Source: a virus. Taken from it: a DNA stretch of 25,998 bases. Below, piece by piece: positions 3,414-20,034 of this stretch. Position numbers and translations under genes: made by a program. The DNA lies in IMG/VR virus record IMGVR_UViG_3300017917_003721, positions 1 through 25,998 of that record. One strand, 5' to 3'. The stretch's first letter is position 1. Every line of letters starts with the position of its first letter. Under the pieces are notes generated by a model. The model was not told the origin of the DNA. It ran no database searches and worked only from the letters and a program-made list of their open reading frames with translations.

Positions 3414-3480
3414 TTTTAGGATCAGTTCAGCAAACTAAAAAATCAAACTTGTAATTTGACTCAAAGTTGATCCTGTTATA
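3414..3480 (+). ncRNA. Element E1: stem-closed element with a free UGU anticodon stem-loop
   Basis: TTTTAGGATCA follows the tRNA-Ser CCA end; AGGATCA (3418-3424) pairs perfectly with TGATCCT (3468-3474). Next to the 5' arm is TTCAGCAAAC. In the middle, 3443-3459 is a textbook anticodon arm, TCAAA-CTTGTAA-TTTGA, with U33, UGU and A37-A38, but no acceptor, D or T arm. Its family is described in the findings. Expression as RNA is inferred from its place inside the tRNA array. Confidence 0.6.
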
Positions 3481-3486
3481 CAATAT

Positions 3487-3562
3487 GTCTCGCTGGTGTT
3501 TAACGGCAGCATAGCGGTCTCCAAAACCGTTGGACGGGGTTCGAATCCCTGGCGGGATGCCA
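3487..3562 (+). tRNA. tRNA-Trp(CCA)
   Basis: Acceptor GTCTCGC/GCGGGAT, discriminator G, CCA; anticodon arm GCGGT-CTCCAAA-ACCGT. Confidence 0.9.
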
Positions 3563-3574
3563 TATCAAAACTAT

Positions 3575-3654
3575 GTCTAGGTGGCGGAGAGGCCGAACGC
3601 GACAGTCTGCAAAACTGTATTTCATCGTGGGTTCGAATCCCACCCTAGATTCCA
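3575..3654 (+). tRNA. tRNA-Cys(GCA)
   Basis: Acceptor GTCTAGG/CCTAGAT, discriminator T as usual for Cys, CCA; anticodon arm ACAGT-CTGCAAA-ACTGT; T arm GTGGG-TTCGAAT-CCCAC. Confidence 0.9.
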
Positions 3655-3662
3655 ATTTTATT

Positions 3663-3736
3663 ACCTCGTTCGTCTAATGGTAGGGCCACGGTGTTACATA
3701 CCGTTGATGGCGGTTCGATTCCTCCACGAGGTACCA
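3663..3736 (+). tRNA. tRNA-Val(TAC), first copy
   Basis: Acceptor ACCTCGT/ACGAGGT, discriminator A, CCA; anticodon arm ACGGT-GTTACAT-ACCGT. A second Val(TAC) of different sequence lies at 13353. Confidence 0.88.
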
Positions 3737-3738
3737 AG

Positions 3739-3812
3739 TTTTAGGATGCGTTCAGCAAACTTTATGCATTTGACTTCTAATCAAAAACGCAAAAAAGCAT
3801 CCTGTTATTTTC
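3739..3812 (+). ncRNA. Element E2: stem-closed element with a free UCU anticodon stem-loop
   Basis: AGGATGC (3743-3749) pairs perfectly with GCATCCT (3797-3803). The 5' arm is followed by TTCAGCAAACT, identical to E1 over 11 bases. At 3769-3785 there is an anticodon arm, TTTGA-CTTCTAA-TCAAA, with U33, UCU and A37-A38, without the rest of a tRNA. An inner pair GCGTT/AACGC (3748-3752, 3786-3790) could compete with the outer stem. Its loop is identical to that of the tRNA-Arg(TCT) at 8000. Confidence 0.6.
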
Positions 3813-3815
3813 CGT

Positions 3816-3891
3816 GGTGTTCATAGTGTAGTGGCCTGCATACTTGTCTGTGAAACAGGTGGTACCGGATCGATACCGGTTGGACACCCCA
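3816..3891 (+). tRNA. tRNA-His(GTG)
   Basis: Acceptor GTGTTCA/TGGACAC with the diagnostic extra G-1 opposite C73, then CCA; anticodon arm CTTGT-CTGTGAA-ACAGG. Confidence 0.9.
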
Positions 3892-3893
3892 AT

Positions 3894-3970
3894 GCCCCTC
3901 TAGGCCAATTGGTAGAGTCAGCTCTCTCAAAAGGAGTTCAGTCGCGGTTCGAATCCGCGGAGGGGTACCA
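3894..3970 (+). tRNA. tRNA with anticodon CAA (Leu by anticodon), short variable loop
   Basis: Acceptor GCCCCTC/GAGGGGT, A73, CCA; anticodon arm GCTCT-CTCAAAA-GGAGT; T arm CGCGG-TTCGAAT-CCGCG. The variable loop is only about 5 bases, so this is type I, unlike the other Leu tRNAs here, and the D stem is weak. The amino acid is assigned by anticodon only. Confidence 0.75.
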
Positions 3971-3979
3971 CAACATCAT

Positions 3980-4055
3980 CCCGCTTTAGCTGATGTGGTC
4001 ATAGCAACGGACTGAAAATCCGTGGAACCCTGTTCGATCCGGGGAGGCGGGACCA
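3980..4055 (+). tRNA. tRNA-Phe(GAA)
   Basis: Acceptor CCCGCTT/AGGCGGG, A73, CCA; anticodon arm ACGGA-CTGAAAA-TCCGT. Confidence 0.9.
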
Positions 4056-4069
4056 TTTAATTTAACTGT

Positions 4070-4147
4070 TGGGGATTCGCCAAGTTGGTCCAAGGCATCG
4101 GATTTTGATTCCGACATTCCTAGGTTCGAATCCTAGATCCCCAGCCA
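4070..4147 (+). tRNA. tRNA-Gln(TTG)
   Basis: Acceptor TGGGGAT/ATCCCCA, G73, CCA, close to the bacterial Gln pattern; anticodon arm TCGGA-TTTTGAT-TCCGA. Confidence 0.9.
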
Positions 4148-4157
4148 TATATTCAGT

Positions 4158-4234
4158 TGGGGAGACATACGACTGGAAGTATACTCGGCTTTGAACCGAG
4201 GTCTTAGTGGGTTCGAATCCCGCCTCCCTTGCCA
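4158..4234 (+). tRNA. tRNA, anticodon TTG (second Gln-type)
   Basis: Acceptor TGGGGAG/CTCCCTT with an unpaired T1-T72, G73, CCA; D stem ATAC/GTAT; anticodon arm CTCGG-CTTTGAA-CCGAG; T arm GTGGG-TTCGAAT-CCCGC. It duplicates the preceding anticodon but differs in sequence. Confidence 0.8.
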
Positions 4235-4235
4235 T

Positions 4236-4309
4236 GCTCCTATAAGTAAATGGCATACTAGCACTTTGGTAAAGTGCCATTACAAGTTCGATTCTTGTTA
4301 GGAGCACCA
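4236..4309 (+). tRNA. tRNA-Thr(GGT)
   Basis: Acceptor GCTCCTA/TAGGAGC, A73, CCA; anticodon arm GCACT-TTGGTAA-AGTGC. Only one base separates it from the preceding tRNA. Confidence 0.9.
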
Positions 4310-4316
4310 GTTTCAT

Positions 4317-4391
4317 ACCACCTTCGTATAATGGAGAATACACTGGGCTACGAACCCGGGAATGTGAGTTCGATTCTTGCAGGTGGTACCA
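4317..4391 (+). tRNA. tRNA-Arg(ACG)
   Basis: Acceptor ACCACCT/AGGTGGT, A73, CCA; anticodon arm CTGGG-CTACGAA-CCCGG. A34 would normally be converted to inosine. Confidence 0.88.
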
Positions 4392-4397
4392 ATTAAT

Positions 4398-4473
4398 AGA
4401 TCCTTAGATTAGAGGCTAAATCGTCTCCGTGACATGGAGAAGACCACTGGTTCGAGTCCAGTAGGATCTACCA
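4398..4473 (+). tRNA. tRNA-Val(GAC)
   Basis: Acceptor AGATCCT/AGGATCT, A73, CCA; D stem GATT/AATC; anticodon arm TCTCC-GTGACAT-GGAGA. Confidence 0.88.
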
Positions 4474-4475
4474 TT

Positions 4476-4552
4476 GCGTGGTTAGCTCAGTTTGGTAGAG
4501 CATCTGGTTGCCAACCAGAAGGTCGCAGGTTCAAACCCTGTACCCCGCACCA
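4476..4552 (+). tRNA. tRNA-Gly(GCC), first copy
   Basis: Acceptor GCGTGGT/ACCCCGC with one mismatch, CCA; anticodon arm TCTGG-TTGCCAA-CCAGA. The discriminator is A, not the U usual for Gly and seen in the Gly tRNAs at 13266 and 17016. Confidence 0.85.
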
Positions 4553-4559
4553 TAATAAT

Positions 4560-4682
4560 GCCGCTGTAGTGTAATGGTTAGCACTCTAAAGAAGGTGATC
4601 CTGTCTTTAGGATACATACAGCAATTTTTCTATTTCCACTGTTAATGGAGAGGACTGGGTTCGAATCCCAGCAGCGGCGCCA
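4560..4682 (+). tRNA. tRNA-Asn(GTT) carrying a ~48-base insert (element E3)
   Basis: Acceptor GCCGCTG/CAGCGGC, G73, CCA, D stem GTGT/GCAC and T arm CTGGG-TTCGAAT-CCCAG form one tRNA. The anticodon arm (CTGTTAA-TGGAG) is separated from the D arm by an insert at about 4587-4634. Removing it restores a perfect CTCCA/TGGAG stem. The insert contains GTGATCCTGTC, TTTAGGATAC and TACAGCAA, the motifs of E1, E2 and E4, here in contiguous order. A normal tRNA-Asn(GTT) exists at 11734, so this copy may be processed by splicing or be defective. Confidence 0.65.
4587..4634 (+). other. Element E3: intron-like insert in tRNA-Asn
   Basis: ATCCT/AGGAT (with GT/AC beyond a bulged G) closes a short hairpin, followed by TACAGCAA. 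The junction falls in the 5' strand of the anticodon stem, with one-base ambiguity. It is far too short for a group I intron. Confidence 0.5.
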
Positions 4683-4808
4683 GTTTTAGGATACTTACAG
4701 CAAATTCTATCAAACGATAGGTAGTTGGTTCGATTCCAACATTACGCTCCATGCGTAGTTAGCTCATTAGGTAGAGCATTCGTCAAACGAAAGTATCCTG
4801 TTTTATTT
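4683..4808 (+). tRNA. Element E4: circularly permuted tRNA, anticodon ATC
   Basis: AGGATAC (4688-4694) pairs with GTATCCT (4793-4799). Inside, the 3' half of a tRNA (4708-4751, ending in CCA) comes first, then one T, then the 5' half (4753-4784). Joining 4784 to 4708 gives a regular 76-base cloverleaf: acceptor GCGTAGT/ATTACGC, D stem GCTC/GAGC, anticodon arm TTCGT-CTATCAA-ACGAT (one T-T mismatch), T arm GTTGG-TTCGATT-CCAAC, T73, CCA. The anticodon would be AUC (Asp GAU codon), which is odd with T73, so the identity is unsure. See the findings. Confidence 0.6.
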
Positions 4809-14036: not shown

Positions 14037-15194
14037 ATGAGAAAAAAATTAGCAATATTAGGTAGAGGCACTGCCGGATGCTTATCACTGGCACATTTTT
14101 TAAGACAGACTAATTGGGATATCGATCTTTATTACGATCCTAATATTCCACAACAGACTGTCGGCGAAGGATCTCAATTAAACTTACCCCATGCACTGTA
14201 TAATAATCTAGGGTTTCAGCACACTGATCTAGCTAAACTCGACGGTAGCTTCAAAGCAGGGATTTTTAAATCCGGTTGGGGATTAGAAGGTAAAGAGTTC
14301 TTTCATCATTTTCCCCCGCCAAGTCTTGCCTATCATTTTAATGCAGTAAAATTGCAAGAACACATTTTAGATCATGCTAGGACCAGCAGTAGATTTAAAG
14401 TCATAGAAGCGTACAAAGAACATAGTAACATAGATGCAGACTATATTCTAGATTGTTCCGGTAAGCCAGCTAACTACGATGATTTTATCATAGCCGATAG
14501 CATTCCAGTTAATTCTGTACATGTTACCCAATGCTATTGGGATTCACCTAAGTTTCAATATACATTAACTCTAGCCCGACCATATGGTTGGGTTTTCGGC
14601 ATTCCGTTAGCAAATCGATGTTCAATAGGTTATATGTACAACAACAATATTAACACACTCGACGAAGTTAAAGAAGATGTCAAAGAAATTTTTACTCAAT
14701 ATAATCTAGTACCTAGCACTACTACAAACACTTTTAGCTTTAACAATTACTATAGAAAAGAAAACTATAGTCAGCGAGTAATTTATAATGGAAATGCCAG
14801 TTTCTTTTTAGAACCCATTGAAGCGACATCAATTGGATTAATGAATAAAATTATAGCTCATGCACACGGTATTTGGAAAGATGGTGTCGAGCTCATACAT
14901 TTACACAACGATTATCTAAGAGAGATTGAAGAAATTAAAATCATGATGGCTGTACATTATTATGCAGGGTCAAAATGGGACACAGAATTTTGGAGGACTG
15001 CTCACGATAAAGCGCAGCCTGTAATAGATTCTGCGTTGAATAATTATCGTTTTAAAGATACTATTAAACAGGCTGAAACTTATAAACCCGGAGATCAACT
15101 TTTAGGCCATTTTGGAACCTGGGGTGAAGCAAGCTGGCAAGAAAACCTTAAGGGGCTAGGAATATTTTCAAAAATTAAGGGAATGATTAAATGA
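14037..15194 (+). CDS. Flavin-dependent halogenase-like protein (1)
   Basis: 385 residues. LAILGRGTAGCLSLAHFL is the N-terminal FAD-binding GxGxxG of the tryptophan-halogenase family; VGEGSQLNLP matches the block after strand 2 (VGE.t.p). YGWVFGIPLANRCSIGY corresponds to the family block that carries WxWxIP, here as GWVFGIPL, so the first Trp is missing. The enzyme would halogenate or otherwise oxidise a substrate with FADH2 and O2. A flavin reductase partner is not in this window. It is similar over its full length to the next gene and overlaps it by four bases (ATGA). Confidence 0.72.
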   Translation: MRKKLAILGRGTAGCLSLAHFLRQTNWDIDLYYDPNIPQQTVGEGSQLNLPHALYNNLGFQHTDLAKLDGSFKAGIFKSGWGLEGKEFFHHFPPPSLAYHFNAVKLQEHILDHARTSSRFKVIEAYKEHSNIDADYILDCSGKPANYDDFIIADSIPVNSVHVTQCYWDSPKFQYTLTLARPYGWVFGIPLANRCSIGYMYNNNINTLDEVKEDVKEIFTQYNLVPSTTTNTFSFNNYYRKENYSQRVIYNGNASFFLEPIEATSIGLMNKIIAHAHGIWKDGVELIHLHNDYLREIEEIKIMMAVHYYAGSKWDTEFWRTAHDKAQPVIDSALNNYRFKDTIKQAETYKPGDQLLGHFGTWGEASWQENLKGLGIFSKIKGMIK

Positions 15195-16360
15195 AAAAAC
15201 TATCTATTATAGGTAGAGGAACTGCTGGATGTTTTGCAGTTACACATTTTCTAAAACACACTGACTGGGAAATTGATTGGTACTTTGATTCTTCTATTAG
15301 CCCACAGGCAGTAGGAGAAGGTTCAACAGTTGATTTGCCGCCGTCTCTTTTTACCAATATAGGCTTTACCCTTGTCGACTTAGAAAAAATCTATGGAACA
15401 TTTAAAGCCGGCATCAAAAAACAGGGATGGGGTAAAGATGGCCGAGAGTTCTATCACTTTTTTGTACCAGGGCAGATCAGCTATCACTTTAATGCAGTAA
15501 AGCTACAAGAATATATTTTCGAAAAAGTCTGCTTAAATCCTCGAGTTAGGATTATAGATGCTAACATCACTGATCATAGCACCATTGACAGCGACTTTGT
15601 TTTTGATTGTTCTGGCAAGCCCAGCAACTTTAATGATTTTGTAGTTTCCGAAAACATACCTGTGAACTCTGTTCATGTTACTCAGTGCTATTGGGATTTG
15701 CCTAGATTTCAATATACGTTAACGTTGGCTCGACCATATGGTTGGGTATTTGGCATTCCATTGAGAAATCGATGCTCTATCGGATATCTTTACAACAACA
15801 AGATTAATTCGCTTGATGAAGTCAAAGAAGATGTCAAAGATATATTTAGGCAATACGAACTAACACCTAGTCAAGATACAAATAGTTTTTCATTCGGTAA
15901 CTATTATCGAAAAGAAAACTTTCAAGGTCGTAGTATCTATAGCGGTAATGCCAGTTTCTTTTTAGAACCGCTCGAAGCTACTAGTATCTATTGTATGAAT
16001 CAAATTCAATTCATGGCACTGAGTCATTGGAAGGGCGGTATACCTCGAGACCAAGCTAACATCGAATACAGTAAACTATTAAATGGTGTTGAAGATGTGA
16101 TTATGCTACACTATTTTGAATCCCCATATAAAACAAGATTCTGGGAAATGGCTAAAGAACGCAGTCGAAATAGGTTAAGGTTTAGTTTAGGTAAAGAAGG
16201 TAGTGAAAATTTAAAAGCACAGGTTAGAGGAGTTGTTAGTCCTGCAACAAATATGGATCCTACTAGAATACCATTCCATGGTTCATGGAATCATTATGCC
16301 TTTTCACAAAATTTAGAGAATCTCGGAATAAGTAGAGATCTTTATATTATGTCACGATAA
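15191..16360 (+). CDS. Flavin-dependent halogenase-like protein (2)
   Basis: 389 residues, paralog of the preceding gene. Shared blocks include GRGTAGC, VGEGS, FKAG, YHFNAVKLQE, FDCSGKP, NSVHVTQCYWD, FQYTLTLARPYGWVFGIPL, NRCSIGY and NASFFLEP-EATSI. It differs most in its C-terminal third. The start ATG overlaps the upstream stop, so the two are translated together, possibly as partners or for two substrates. Like its partner, it has GWVFGIPL in place of WxWxIP, so loss or change of halogenation is possible. Confidence 0.72.
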   Translation: MKKLSIIGRGTAGCFAVTHFLKHTDWEIDWYFDSSISPQAVGEGSTVDLPPSLFTNIGFTLVDLEKIYGTFKAGIKKQGWGKDGREFYHFFVPGQISYHFNAVKLQEYIFEKVCLNPRVRIIDANITDHSTIDSDFVFDCSGKPSNFNDFVVSENIPVNSVHVTQCYWDLPRFQYTLTLARPYGWVFGIPLRNRCSIGYLYNNKINSLDEVKEDVKDIFRQYELTPSQDTNSFSFGNYYRKENFQGRSIYSGNASFFLEPLEATSIYCMNQIQFMALSHWKGGIPRDQANIEYSKLLNGVEDVIMLHYFESPYKTRFWEMAKERSRNRLRFSLGKEGSENLKAQVRGVVSPATNMDPTRIPFHGSWNHYAFSQNLENLGISRDLYIMSR

Positions 16361-17821: not shown

Positions 17822-18331
17822 ATGCCGTGGATTCAAAACGTATCACTTGCTGATATCCCGAAAGGACATCATGTTCGTGTAGGTGAAAATAGTATGCTGA
17901 TTCAAATCGTAGATCCTGCTATGGAGTTTCCGATTCCTAAGCATCACTTCAAAGAAGTGCATCAATTTGAGTTCCTTGATCTTGAACGTGACGACAAGTG
18001 GGGTGAAGAATTTAAGGTCACCGACGAACAAGCAGAGCAACTAGTTCGACTTCTACAACATGCCCTTGATAAGAGAATGGATGTTGTAGTTCATTGTGTC
18101 GCAGGTGTGTGCCGTAGTGGTGCAGTCTGTGAAGTCGGTGTTATGATGGGCTTTCAGGACACCGAGGTTTACAGGAGTCCCAACTTGATGGTCAAGCACA
18201 AGATGATGAAGAGTTTGGGTTGGACCTACGATGAAAATGAACCGCACACCATTAACGGTGTGCCGTTCGAGTACGATGAACTAGGCAACAAAAAGATTTG
18301 GGTGCCGCCACAGAGAGACGGAGACATATGA
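17822..18331 (+). CDS. Dual-specificity/tyrosine phosphatase-like protein
   Basis: 169 residues. DVVVHCVAGVCRSGAVCEVG contains the P-loop signature H91-C92-x5-R98-S of Cys-based phosphatases; a region enriched in Asp (FLDLERDDKWGEEF, residues 51-64) may hold the general acid. It would remove phosphate from phosphoproteins or RNA 5' ends, and the neighbouring kinase-like gene makes RNA-end chemistry a possible role. Directly follows the previous stop and overlaps the next start by four bases. Confidence 0.7.
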   Translation: MPWIQNVSLADIPKGHHVRVGENSMLIQIVDPAMEFPIPKHHFKEVHQFEFLDLERDDKWGEEFKVTDEQAEQLVRLLQHALDKRMDVVVHCVAGVCRSGAVCEVGVMMGFQDTEVYRSPNLMVKHKMMKSLGWTYDENEPHTINGVPFEYDELGNKKIWVPPQRDGDI

Positions 18332-18522
18332 ACATTTCAAGAACAGAACAAATTCGTATTAAAGAATACAATCTAGAACAACGGCGTCTGCAGGATAAAC
18401 GAGACGAAGACTATCGCAAGCTCATAGAAAAACGTAAGTTTGACGAAATTGCATCGGAACGAGTTCAACGAAATATTCGGTTGGATTTAGATAAAGGTCG
18501 TAACGTAGATGTTGAATGCTGA
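18328..18522 (+). CDS. Small charged coiled-coil-like protein (64 aa)
   Basis: ATG 18328, with GGAG four to eight bases upstream, is chosen over an earlier start in the phosphatase gene. Nearly all of the product is one long charged helix (EQIRIKEYNLEQRRLQDKR..., EKRKFDEIASERVQRNI). It overlaps both neighbours. Function unknown. Confidence 0.55.
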   Translation: MNISRTEQIRIKEYNLEQRRLQDKRDEDYRKLIEKRKFDEIASERVQRNIRLDLDKGRNVDVEC

Positions 18523-18529
18523 GATTAAA

Positions 18530-18994
18530 ATGCCTAAATGTTATCAATTGATTGGAGTGCCTGCTTCGGGTAAAACTACTTGGATCGAATCTCAAGATTG
18601 GGCCCTTACCTGTGCTCGAGTTAGCACAGACAAGTGGGTTGAAATCTATGCTAAAGAGATCGGTAAGACCTATAGTGAAGTGTTTAATGATTTTATGCCT
18701 ACTGCGGTAGATCTAATGGCTAAAGAGATCGTTACCTATCGCAGTATGCACCGAAATATCATTTGGGATCAAACCAGCACCACTGTAAAAAGCCGATTGC
18801 GTAAATTTAACATGTTACCCAATTATGAGCATATTGCTGTGGTATTCAAAACTCCGCCAATCAGTGAATTAAAGCAACGATTGGCCGGTCGTCCTGGTAA
18901 AGAAATTCCTTGGGAAGTTGTGGCAGGAATGATCGATAATTTTGAAATGCCCACAGAAGAAGAAGGGTTTAAAGAAATTTGGATAGCCAGTTGA
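18530..18994 (+). CDS. Polynucleotide-kinase-like P-loop ATPase
   Basis: 154 residues from ATG 18530; a start at 18509 is also possible. QLIGVPASGKTTWI is a Walker A loop; ARVSTDKWVE and NIIWDQTSTTVKSR match the DxW and WDxT blocks of the AAA_33 / T4 Pnk-type kinase family; RLAGRPGKEIPWEVVAGMI is the lid region. T4 Pnk phosphorylates RNA 5' ends in tRNA repair. The 3'-phosphatase domain of T4 Pnk is absent here. It fits a tRNA-rich phage, but the substrate is inferred. Confidence 0.7.
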   Translation: MPKCYQLIGVPASGKTTWIESQDWALTCARVSTDKWVEIYAKEIGKTYSEVFNDFMPTAVDLMAKEIVTYRSMHRNIIWDQTSTTVKSRLRKFNMLPNYEHIAVVFKTPPISELKQRLAGRPGKEIPWEVVAGMIDNFEMPTEEEGFKEIWIAS

Positions 18995-19020
18995 CAAATT
19001 GGTAAAAACTGTGTTATAAT
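18991..19020 (+). promoter_or_regulatory. Sigma70-like early promoter with perfect TATAAT
   Basis: TTGACA, 18-base spacer, TATAAT, overlapping the stop of the kinase gene. It drives the metallophosphatase, which has a very strong AAAGGAGG. Confidence 0.75.
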
Positions 19021-19045
19021 ATTATTTTAAAGAAAGGAGGGCAAG

Positions 19046-19651
19046 ATGCCTAGTGTATTTTTAGTTAGTGACACGCACTTCGGACATACCGGTGTCTGCC
19101 GCTTCACACGTAACGACGGTGTTACAAAGTTAAGACCGTGGGACAATCCTGCAGAAATGGACGAAGCCATGATCAAGGCTTGGAACGAACGTGTTAAGCC
19201 CACAGATAAGGTTTACCACTTAGGTGACGTTGTAATCAACCGTAAGGCATTGCCTACCTTGGCTCGGTTAAACGGTGATAAGGTATTAATTCGCGGTAAC
19301 CACGATATCTTCCCTGATGCCGAGTATCGGCAATACTTCCGTGAACTTCGTGCATATCATGTTATGAACGGTATGATTTTAAGTCATATTCCTGTACACA
19401 GTGATAGTTTGGGCCGTTTCGGTGTTAACATTCACGGACACTTACACGCAAATCGTGTCAAGAAGGCTCGTGGTGTTGATGCACGTACCGGCGAAATCTT
19501 ATACAGCGACGAACCCGATGTGCGTTACCATTGTGTCTGTGTTGAACAGACTCCAGATTTTGCTCCTATCTTATTCGAAGATGTGTTAAAGCGTATTGGG
19601 GAAGAAGGTGGCGAAGTTGGATTTCGTAATGGAAACGGTCCTACCATGTAA
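19046..19651 (+). CDS. Calcineurin-like metallophosphatase
   Basis: 201 residues. VSDTHFGHTG (DxH), VYHLGDVVI (GD), LIRGNHDIF (GNHD) and VNIHGHLHAN (GHLH) are the four metal-binding blocks of the metallophosphoesterase superfamily. Phage members of this size are common; activity on nucleotides, RNA ends or phosphodiesters is possible. The ribosome site is near perfect, so high expression is expected. It is followed after 8 bases by the GGQ gene. Confidence 0.85.
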   Translation: MPSVFLVSDTHFGHTGVCRFTRNDGVTKLRPWDNPAEMDEAMIKAWNERVKPTDKVYHLGDVVINRKALPTLARLNGDKVLIRGNHDIFPDAEYRQYFRELRAYHVMNGMILSHIPVHSDSLGRFGVNIHGHLHANRVKKARGVDARTGEILYSDEPDVRYHCVCVEQTPDFAPILFEDVLKRIGEEGGEVGFRNGNGPTM

Positions 19652-19659
19652 GGTGTTGT

Positions 19660-20034
19660 ATGAAAATCACAGAAGATCAATTTAGATTCGAGTGGTACAG
19701 CGGCACAGGCAAAGGTGGGCAACATCGCAACAAGCATCAAAACTGTTGCCGTTGTATTCACGAACCTACTGGTATTATCGCTAATGGTACTGCTAGTAGG
19801 AGCCGTGAAGATAATCGGGCGTCGGCTTATGCTACTTGCAGAGCCCGAGTTGCCGCACACTTTCATAAAGACAAGGAGCGCGGACTTGCGGGAACAGAAC
19901 GTATTCGTACATATCACGAACCCGACAACCATGTTACAGACCATGCCAGTGGATTTCAAGACACTTATACCAATGTTGTCATCAAAGGTAATATGGAAGA
20001 TGTAATCGAGGCAAGAGCAAAGGCAGTTCGATAA
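19660..20034 (+). CDS. GGQ release-factor-domain protein
   Basis: 124 residues. WYSGTGKGGQHRNKHQNCCRC with G19-G20-Q21, then IHEPTGIIANGTASRSREDNR, matches domain 3 of class I release factors, which cleaves peptidyl-tRNA. Codon-recognition domains are absent. The length fits a rescue factor such as ArfB or the PrfH type, though the Lys/Arg-rich tail typical of ArfB is short. It probably frees stalled ribosomes. Overlaps the next start (TAATG). Confidence 0.8.
   Translation: MKITEDQFRFEWYSGTGKGGQHRNKHQNCCRCIHEPTGIIANGTASRSREDNRASAYATCRARVAAHFHKDKERGLAGTERIRTYHEPDNHVTDHASGFQDTYTNVVIKGNMEDVIEARAKAVR

Follow-up and report, generated by a model that had tools for sequence, protein, structure and literature searches.

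A family of phage noncoding RNAs with tRNA-like cargo and, as probable protein partner, a phage-encoded relative of human Ro60

Elements in a viral tRNA array

The window, by which is meant the whole stretch of 25,998 nucleotides of viral DNA analysed here, contains a dense tRNA array in which four copies of a structured element are situated. Exact search of the window with AGGATNNNTWCAGCAA returned four plus-strand matches and no others, at 3418, 3743, 4609 and 4688, in agreement with the original prediction of four copies with common motifs. In the window's own record the pattern occurs four times forward and never in reverse, and the reversed pattern has no match. When up to two mismatches are allowed, five matches are found in the window against a mean of 1.5 in shuffled sequences, and none of 100 shuffles reaches five. 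A closing stem of 7 bp, in which the changes compensate one another, is common to the four plus-strand copies, as is T(T/A)CAGCAA in unpaired form. The compensating pairs that had been proposed, CA/TG (3423-3424 with 3468-3469), GC/GC and AC/GT (4793-4794), are all present, as is AC/GT with a bulged G (G4597) in the copy inside tRNA-Asn. Further downstream, the window carries two adjacent tryptophan-halogenase-like genes (14037-16360; Pfam PF04820 matches the first, to which the second is alike by eye), and genes for a DSP phosphatase, a PNK-like kinase and a metallophosphoesterase (17822..19651, plus strand, from Pfam). Next to the latter cassette is the gene of a short protein that has an RF-1 domain and a GGQ motif and resembles release or rescue factors (19660-20034).

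Element 1 (3418..3476, plus strand, exact pattern) is 59 nt long, with the closing stem AGGATCA/TGATCCT, the motif GTTCAGCAA and a 3' end CTGT. Its cargo (3443..3459, plus strand) is an anticodon stem-loop, TCAAA-CTTGTAA-TTTGA, with a loop as in tRNA-Thr UGU, assigned from the sequence and from class statistics. Element 2 (3743..3805, plus strand, exact pattern and fold) is 63 nt long and possesses the stem AGGATGC/GCATCCT, again with GTTCAGCAA and a 3' CTGT. Its cargo (3769..3785, plus strand), TTTGA-CTTCTAA-TCAAA with a loop as in tRNA-Arg UCU, was recognised from sequence, fold and class statistics and stacks on a short TGC/GCA helix. Both cargo hairpins have the 5 bp, 7-nt loop and U33 of an anticodon arm. 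Element 3 (4688..4801, plus strand, exact pattern) extends to 114 nt, with the stem AGGATAC/GTATCCT, TTACAGCAA, a 3' CTGT and a predicted fold of -37.9 kcal/mol. Its cargo (4724..4777, plus strand) is a permuted tRNA-like domain composed of a T-arm (4724-4740), acceptor strands (4741-4747 and 4753-4759) joined by TCCAT, and a D-arm (4762-4777); ARAGORN calls the insert a tRNA only once its ends are joined, and there is no anticodon arm, the predicted fold showing two small hairpins in that place. A covariance model (R1), built from elements 1 and 2 together with metagenomic copies, gives 63.9 and 69.5 bits to these two of its training sequences, and 30.1 bits (E 2e-4, R1 E-values being rough) to element 3, which is not among them.

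The fourth copy lies within a tRNA-Asn(GUU) of normal order (4560..4682, plus strand; Rfam tRNA 44.4 bits), which is interrupted between positions 28 and 29, its exons forming a CTCCA/TGGAG stem with the loop CTGTTAA; ARAGORN left this tRNA at 4560..4682 uncalled in the window. Here the motifs occur in hairpin order (4595..4624, plus strand), as GT(G)ATCCT-GTCTTT-AGGATAC with ATACAGCAA, inside an insertion at 4588-4635. The view that one element exists in two topologies, a flanking pair in three copies and a hairpin in tRNA-Asn, is thereby borne out, while the length of about 48 bases that went with it holds for this insertion and not for the other elements, which measure 59, 63 and 114 nt. 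Group I and II introns had been excluded by length, and rightly so, the insertion of 48 nt being set against a core of at least about 200 nt. No Rfam intron family matches in the window, no Rfam ribozyme matched in the window and element searches, and DNA matches between the window and named relatives are confined to tRNA genes.

Covariation and cargo classes

Elements were sampled from fetched viral-contig loci among the 5'-motif matches listed, and these loci contain at least 361 distinct strict copies, that is, copies with distinct inserts and a matching 3' motif. Covariation was assessed on 260 elements defined solely by AGGATNNNTWCAGCAA and the next ATCCTGT, so that the variable NN positions played no part in their choice. 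The first two N positions pair in 98.8% and 93.8% of these elements, against about 40-42% after shuffling, and both variable pairs are formed in 244 of the 260 (about 41% per pair if shuffled); the third N, paired in 31.5%, has no consistent pairing. The claim of a genuine RNA stem is confirmed by these figures, and the covariance-model and covariation checks suggested with it yielded hundreds more phage copies with covarying stems. An alignment of 67 sequences has 98.9% of its cells paired (slid control 33-42%) and shows substitutions in both strands of the stem for six of its seven pairs, but as that set had been selected for pairing it describes the family and provides no independent test. 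When stems of 7 bp were sought in general form, 924 enclosed CAGCAA and 14-22 enclosed permuted 6-mers, which are in themselves two to three times rarer than CAGCAA; in this search every stem position varies as a pair except the second G-C. Covariation in relatives extends to AGGAT (AGAAT/ATTCT, AGGTT/AACCT, AGAGT/ACTCT), and the stem is not fixed to this sequence.

All 346 elements that could be judged share the strand of the nearest tRNA, at a median distance of 72 nt, and within each of 14 records all copies are found on a single strand. The anticodon-arm form of the pattern is absent from the 84,980 bacterial genomes searched. As in Y RNAs, the ends pair into a stem accompanied by a conserved unpaired motif, and at least one RNA of the set (element 3) contains a tRNA-like domain.

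The cargo between the ends is of several kinds: anticodon arms, permuted tRNA-like domains, other hairpins, and structured RNAs of 140-240 nt. Among 164 small inserts a hairpin of 5 bp with a 7-nt loop is present in 112 (16.6 in shuffled inserts), and one that also has U33 in 92 (3.6 shuffled); the commonest anticodons of the latter end in U and are followed by A37 (48 of 92). Among 194 inserts of 60-240 nt, ARAGORN recognises 69 as tRNAs when the insert is circularised (ends trimmed and joined) but only six in linear form and none of 194 when shuffled, which indicates that the permuted tRNA-like domains are real. The proposed tie to tRNAs is borne out, while the cargo need not be an anticodon arm and can be, for instance, a permuted tRNA-like domain. 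A third class of inserts, 130-240 nt in length, is conserved among phages and found no family in an Rfam search; for the 140-240-nt cargo no E. coli or phage homologues were found. Two large cargo classes of about 140 and 200 nt (L041:3236-3640 and many similar loci) are often in tandem, have no Rfam match, are conserved and lie at a median of 300-480 nt from the Ro-like gene described below; they are possibly the main Y RNAs of the phages that bear them. Another recurrent cargo, GCTAACT.TGG.TGTCTAGCGAC (L103:7617-7676, minus strand, and others), is not an anticodon arm.

The Ro-like gene and its neighbourhood

When all ORFs around the elements were clustered, the commonest family, present in 138 loci, proved to be a Ro-like family. 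It corresponds to phrog_850 ('RNA-binding protein'), and carries DUF2828 and DUF7788 as a DUF2828/vWA protein; records of mycobacteriophages call it 'Ro-like RNA binding protein'. At loci that possess both, the elements without exception (171 of 171) share their strand with the Ro-like gene, and 162 are upstream of it. The gene is found in 19 of the 22 records searched (mostly 90-370 kb), with the exceptions of the window and of records of 114 and 91 kb. Pfam TROVE gave no match to the Ro-like protein (0/22). An AlphaFold (AF2) model from 24 homologues (pLDDT 78.8) has as its best PDB matches in Foldseek TROVE 9kop (E 2e-10), Ro60 1yvr/2i91 (3e-8) and Rsr 2nvo (2e-7), with TM of 0.4-0.57. The Ro-like protein has a predicted Ro60 fold, an assignment made from this model of moderate confidence and from the names in the records; a literature search found no paper connecting DUF2828 with Ro60.

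The Ro-like gene has no match in the 26-kb window, including the site that it occupies in relatives, but is present in all four nearest relatives (L134, L143, L186 and L041), and the link between the window's elements and the gene runs through relatives. The kinase/phosphatase genes kept in the window often adjoin the Ro-like gene in relatives; co-occurrence with it was recorded for the DSP phosphatase in 65/87, the PNK-like kinase in 49/58 and the metallophosphoesterase in 78/104. Such a cassette is in line with RNA repair or decay. The tie to tRNAs that had been foreseen is correct but incomplete, the tie to the gene of the Ro60-fold protein being equally strong. The elements are most plausibly phage-encoded Y-RNA-like noncoding RNAs that serve as scaffolds of a Ro-like ribonucleoprotein presenting tRNA mimics, a reading to which a probability of roughly 0.8 is assigned.

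About a dozen similar interrupted tRNAs, with stem variants, are found in other phages. The tRNAs at L329 7067, L326 9494, L323 2466 and L093 5069 (all minus strand), L230 7225 and L269 894 have a docking hairpin inserted on the 5' side of their anticodon stem, ACTCT/AGAGT being among the stem variants of this set. The two motifs might be the halves of a very small tRNA intron, such that the insert in tRNA-Asn is spliced out and the permuted copies, as permuted intron-exon elements, give rise to circular anticodon arms or circularly permuted tRNAs. The anticodon stem does stay continuous across the insertion in interrupted tRNAs, and of 58 permuted copies joined at the 28^29 junction, 12 acquire a perfectly paired anticodon stem of 5 bp whose 7-nt loop contains U33, against a mean of 3.7 and a maximum of 8 with swapped halves. 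The same pairing, however, is expected from a three-way junction without splicing; many permuted copies, element 3 included, acquire no proper anticodon arm on joining; and the permuted order exists in known Y RNAs that undergo no splicing. Four phages with an interrupted tRNA were checked, and each also encodes, beside it, an uninterrupted tRNA of identical anticodon, so splicing is unneeded. There is also no common ligase: RtcB and RNA ligase, considered as obligate partners and rejected, are encoded in one and eight of 20 records, respectively. Splicing is thus unlikely, and a self-splicing permuted intron was rejected in view of the gene neighbourhood, in which the Ro-like family is the commonest. 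In anticodon stems rebuilt from permuted copies (for example L054:9704, L091:3577 and L193:183) a single 29-41 mismatch is frequent, with bases that differ between copies, as though the mismatch were retained.

Named phages provide a separate comparison. R1 matches 12 of the 14 named phages with a Ro-like gene, many of the matches lying beside the gene, and none of four tRNA-rich named phages without it. The two gene-bearing phages with no R1 match, Campylobacter NCTC12673 and Bacillus FADO, did match in a looser stem search. The hosts include Synechococcus, Vibrio, Aeromonas, Escherichia, Mycobacterium, Listeria, Staphylococcus and Enterococcus, and among these phages the stems vary while CAGCAA is constant. 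Listeria phage P100 has CAGCAA elements just upstream of its Ro-like gene. In its relative CKA15, three highly transcribed putative noncoding regions were described in the 2 kb of sequence upstream of the gene for an Rsr-like protein, which was itself found in virions, and the authors suggested Y RNAs (PMC12282133). These abundant early transcripts of a P100-like phage resemble the elements in position, the comparison with P100 being one of place; unlike the present elements, the CKA15 Y RNAs are a hypothesis without motif, structure or cargo (PMC12282133).

That the elements serve ribosomes or a different protein as generic RNA scaffolds, with the Ro-like gene a mere passenger of tRNA arrays, would agree with their proximity to tRNAs and with the window, which has elements and no Ro-like gene. 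Yet in named phages from hosts of several phyla, with few tRNAs, elements stand directly beside the Ro-like gene, and tRNA-rich phages without the gene are also without elements, which makes this explanation quite improbable. A DNA-level mobile or recombination element, a hairpin-ended cassette inserted in tRNA arrays, is suggested by the numerous dispersed copies and inverted ends but is highly improbable in view of the confinement to a single strand, the conserved unpaired CAGCAA and the structured, tRNA-mimicking cargo.

Relation to known RNAs and proposed function

The Y-RNA-like reading finds its nearest bacterial counterpart in YrlA (RF02553) with Rsr/Ro60, in which the ends likewise pair into a stem, a Ro60-fold protein gene is adjacent, as the Ro-like gene is to the elements in relatives of the window, and the Rfam consensus has the same order of T-arm, acceptor and D-arm as element 3. 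The YrlA model matches element 3 alone among the window's elements, at 27.6 bits and far under its 69-bit gathering score. YrlA has a different conserved motif, with no CAGCAA in the consensus, and the phage elements differ further in the many RNAs per genome, the lone anticodon arms as cargo, the docking hairpin inside tRNAs and the DUF2828-type partner outside Pfam TROVE. Circularly permuted tRNA genes of algae and archaea also place the 3' half ahead of the 5' half; they possess a bulge-helix-bulge splice motif, which in the phage elements is replaced by the CAGCAA closing stem, and the tRNA-like part of the phage elements often has no anticodon arm. HDV-like theta ribozymes (PMC10879173) are likewise structured RNAs linked to phage tRNAs, but the elements have no Rfam ribozyme match.

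Class I RNAs of Dictyostelium (RF01414) are about 60 nt long with AG...CUGU ends, an 11-nt motif by the 5' strand of a short stem that shows compensatory changes, and a variable interior, and none were found outside dictyostelids (PMC7919456). The phage elements fit this description almost point by point: 5' AG, 3' CUGU, a covarying stem of 6-7 bp, a UUACAGCAA-type motif beside the 5' stem strand, a length of about 60 nt and a highly variable interior. Class I RNAs have A before CAGCAA where the phage motif has T or A, and differ in their dictyostelid origin, a eukaryotic (DUSE) promoter and binding by Rnp1A, an RRM protein. The RF01414 model matches 16 of 23 phage records at E 0.01 or better and none of 14 control genomes; its best phage match (36.0 bits, E 1.4e-6 in its record) falls below the gathering score of 41.5 bits. 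This match is at L133:5269-5327, where an A-rich interior is also similar. At a limit of 0.05, seven of the 14 named phages with a Ro-like gene and none of the four without are matched, as are, weakly, four of 14 cellular controls. Element 3 obtains 16 bits, below the cutoff, and elements 1 and 2 are unlisted at E 5. Common ancestry of the phage elements and class I RNAs is possible on these sequence likenesses, although with so short a motif the two may instead have converged towards a like site in a protein; that the phage Y RNAs and class I RNAs form one family, recognised in both by Ro60-fold (DUF2828-type) proteins, is put forward tentatively, as the less probable outcome.

In the proposed mechanism, the paired 5' and 3' ends and the unpaired T(T/A)CAGCAA would form a docking site for the phage Ro60-fold protein (DUF2828/DUF7788, phrog_850), and the exchangeable cargo held between them would mimic tRNA. 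Elements 1 and 2 would carry a lone anticodon stem-loop, element 3 a permuted tRNA-like domain in which the scaffold stands in for the anticodon side, and tRNA-Asn would be a whole tRNA whose anticodon stem has received a docking hairpin. The order would look permuted because the scaffold stem occupies the place of the anticodon arm, without any need for splicing. Expressed in the window's phage and bound by a Ro-like protein, such RNAs may present tRNA or anticodon-loop mimics to tRNA-acting enzymes, serving either to decoy anticodon nucleases of the host or to tether enzymes of RNA decay, repair or modification. Presentation of this kind is proposed by analogy with Rsr and its Y RNAs and with the suggestion that YrlA may inhibit an anticodon nuclease (PMC7790460).

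The elements constitute a large family of phage noncoding RNAs, defined by a simple signature and accompanied by a Ro60-fold protein in the phages checked, that takes in such well-known phages as the Felix O1-like phages, Listeria P100 and mycobacteriophages. The cargo, and most of all the lone anticodon loops and the tRNAs with a docking hairpin in the anticodon stem, points to a phage-host conflict centred on tRNA. For the class I RNAs of Dictyostelium, previously without relatives beyond the social amoebae, the family offers a testable lead: if the two are one family, class I RNAs would be amoebal Y RNAs, and such RNAs would serve phages as exchangeable tRNA-mimic scaffolds.
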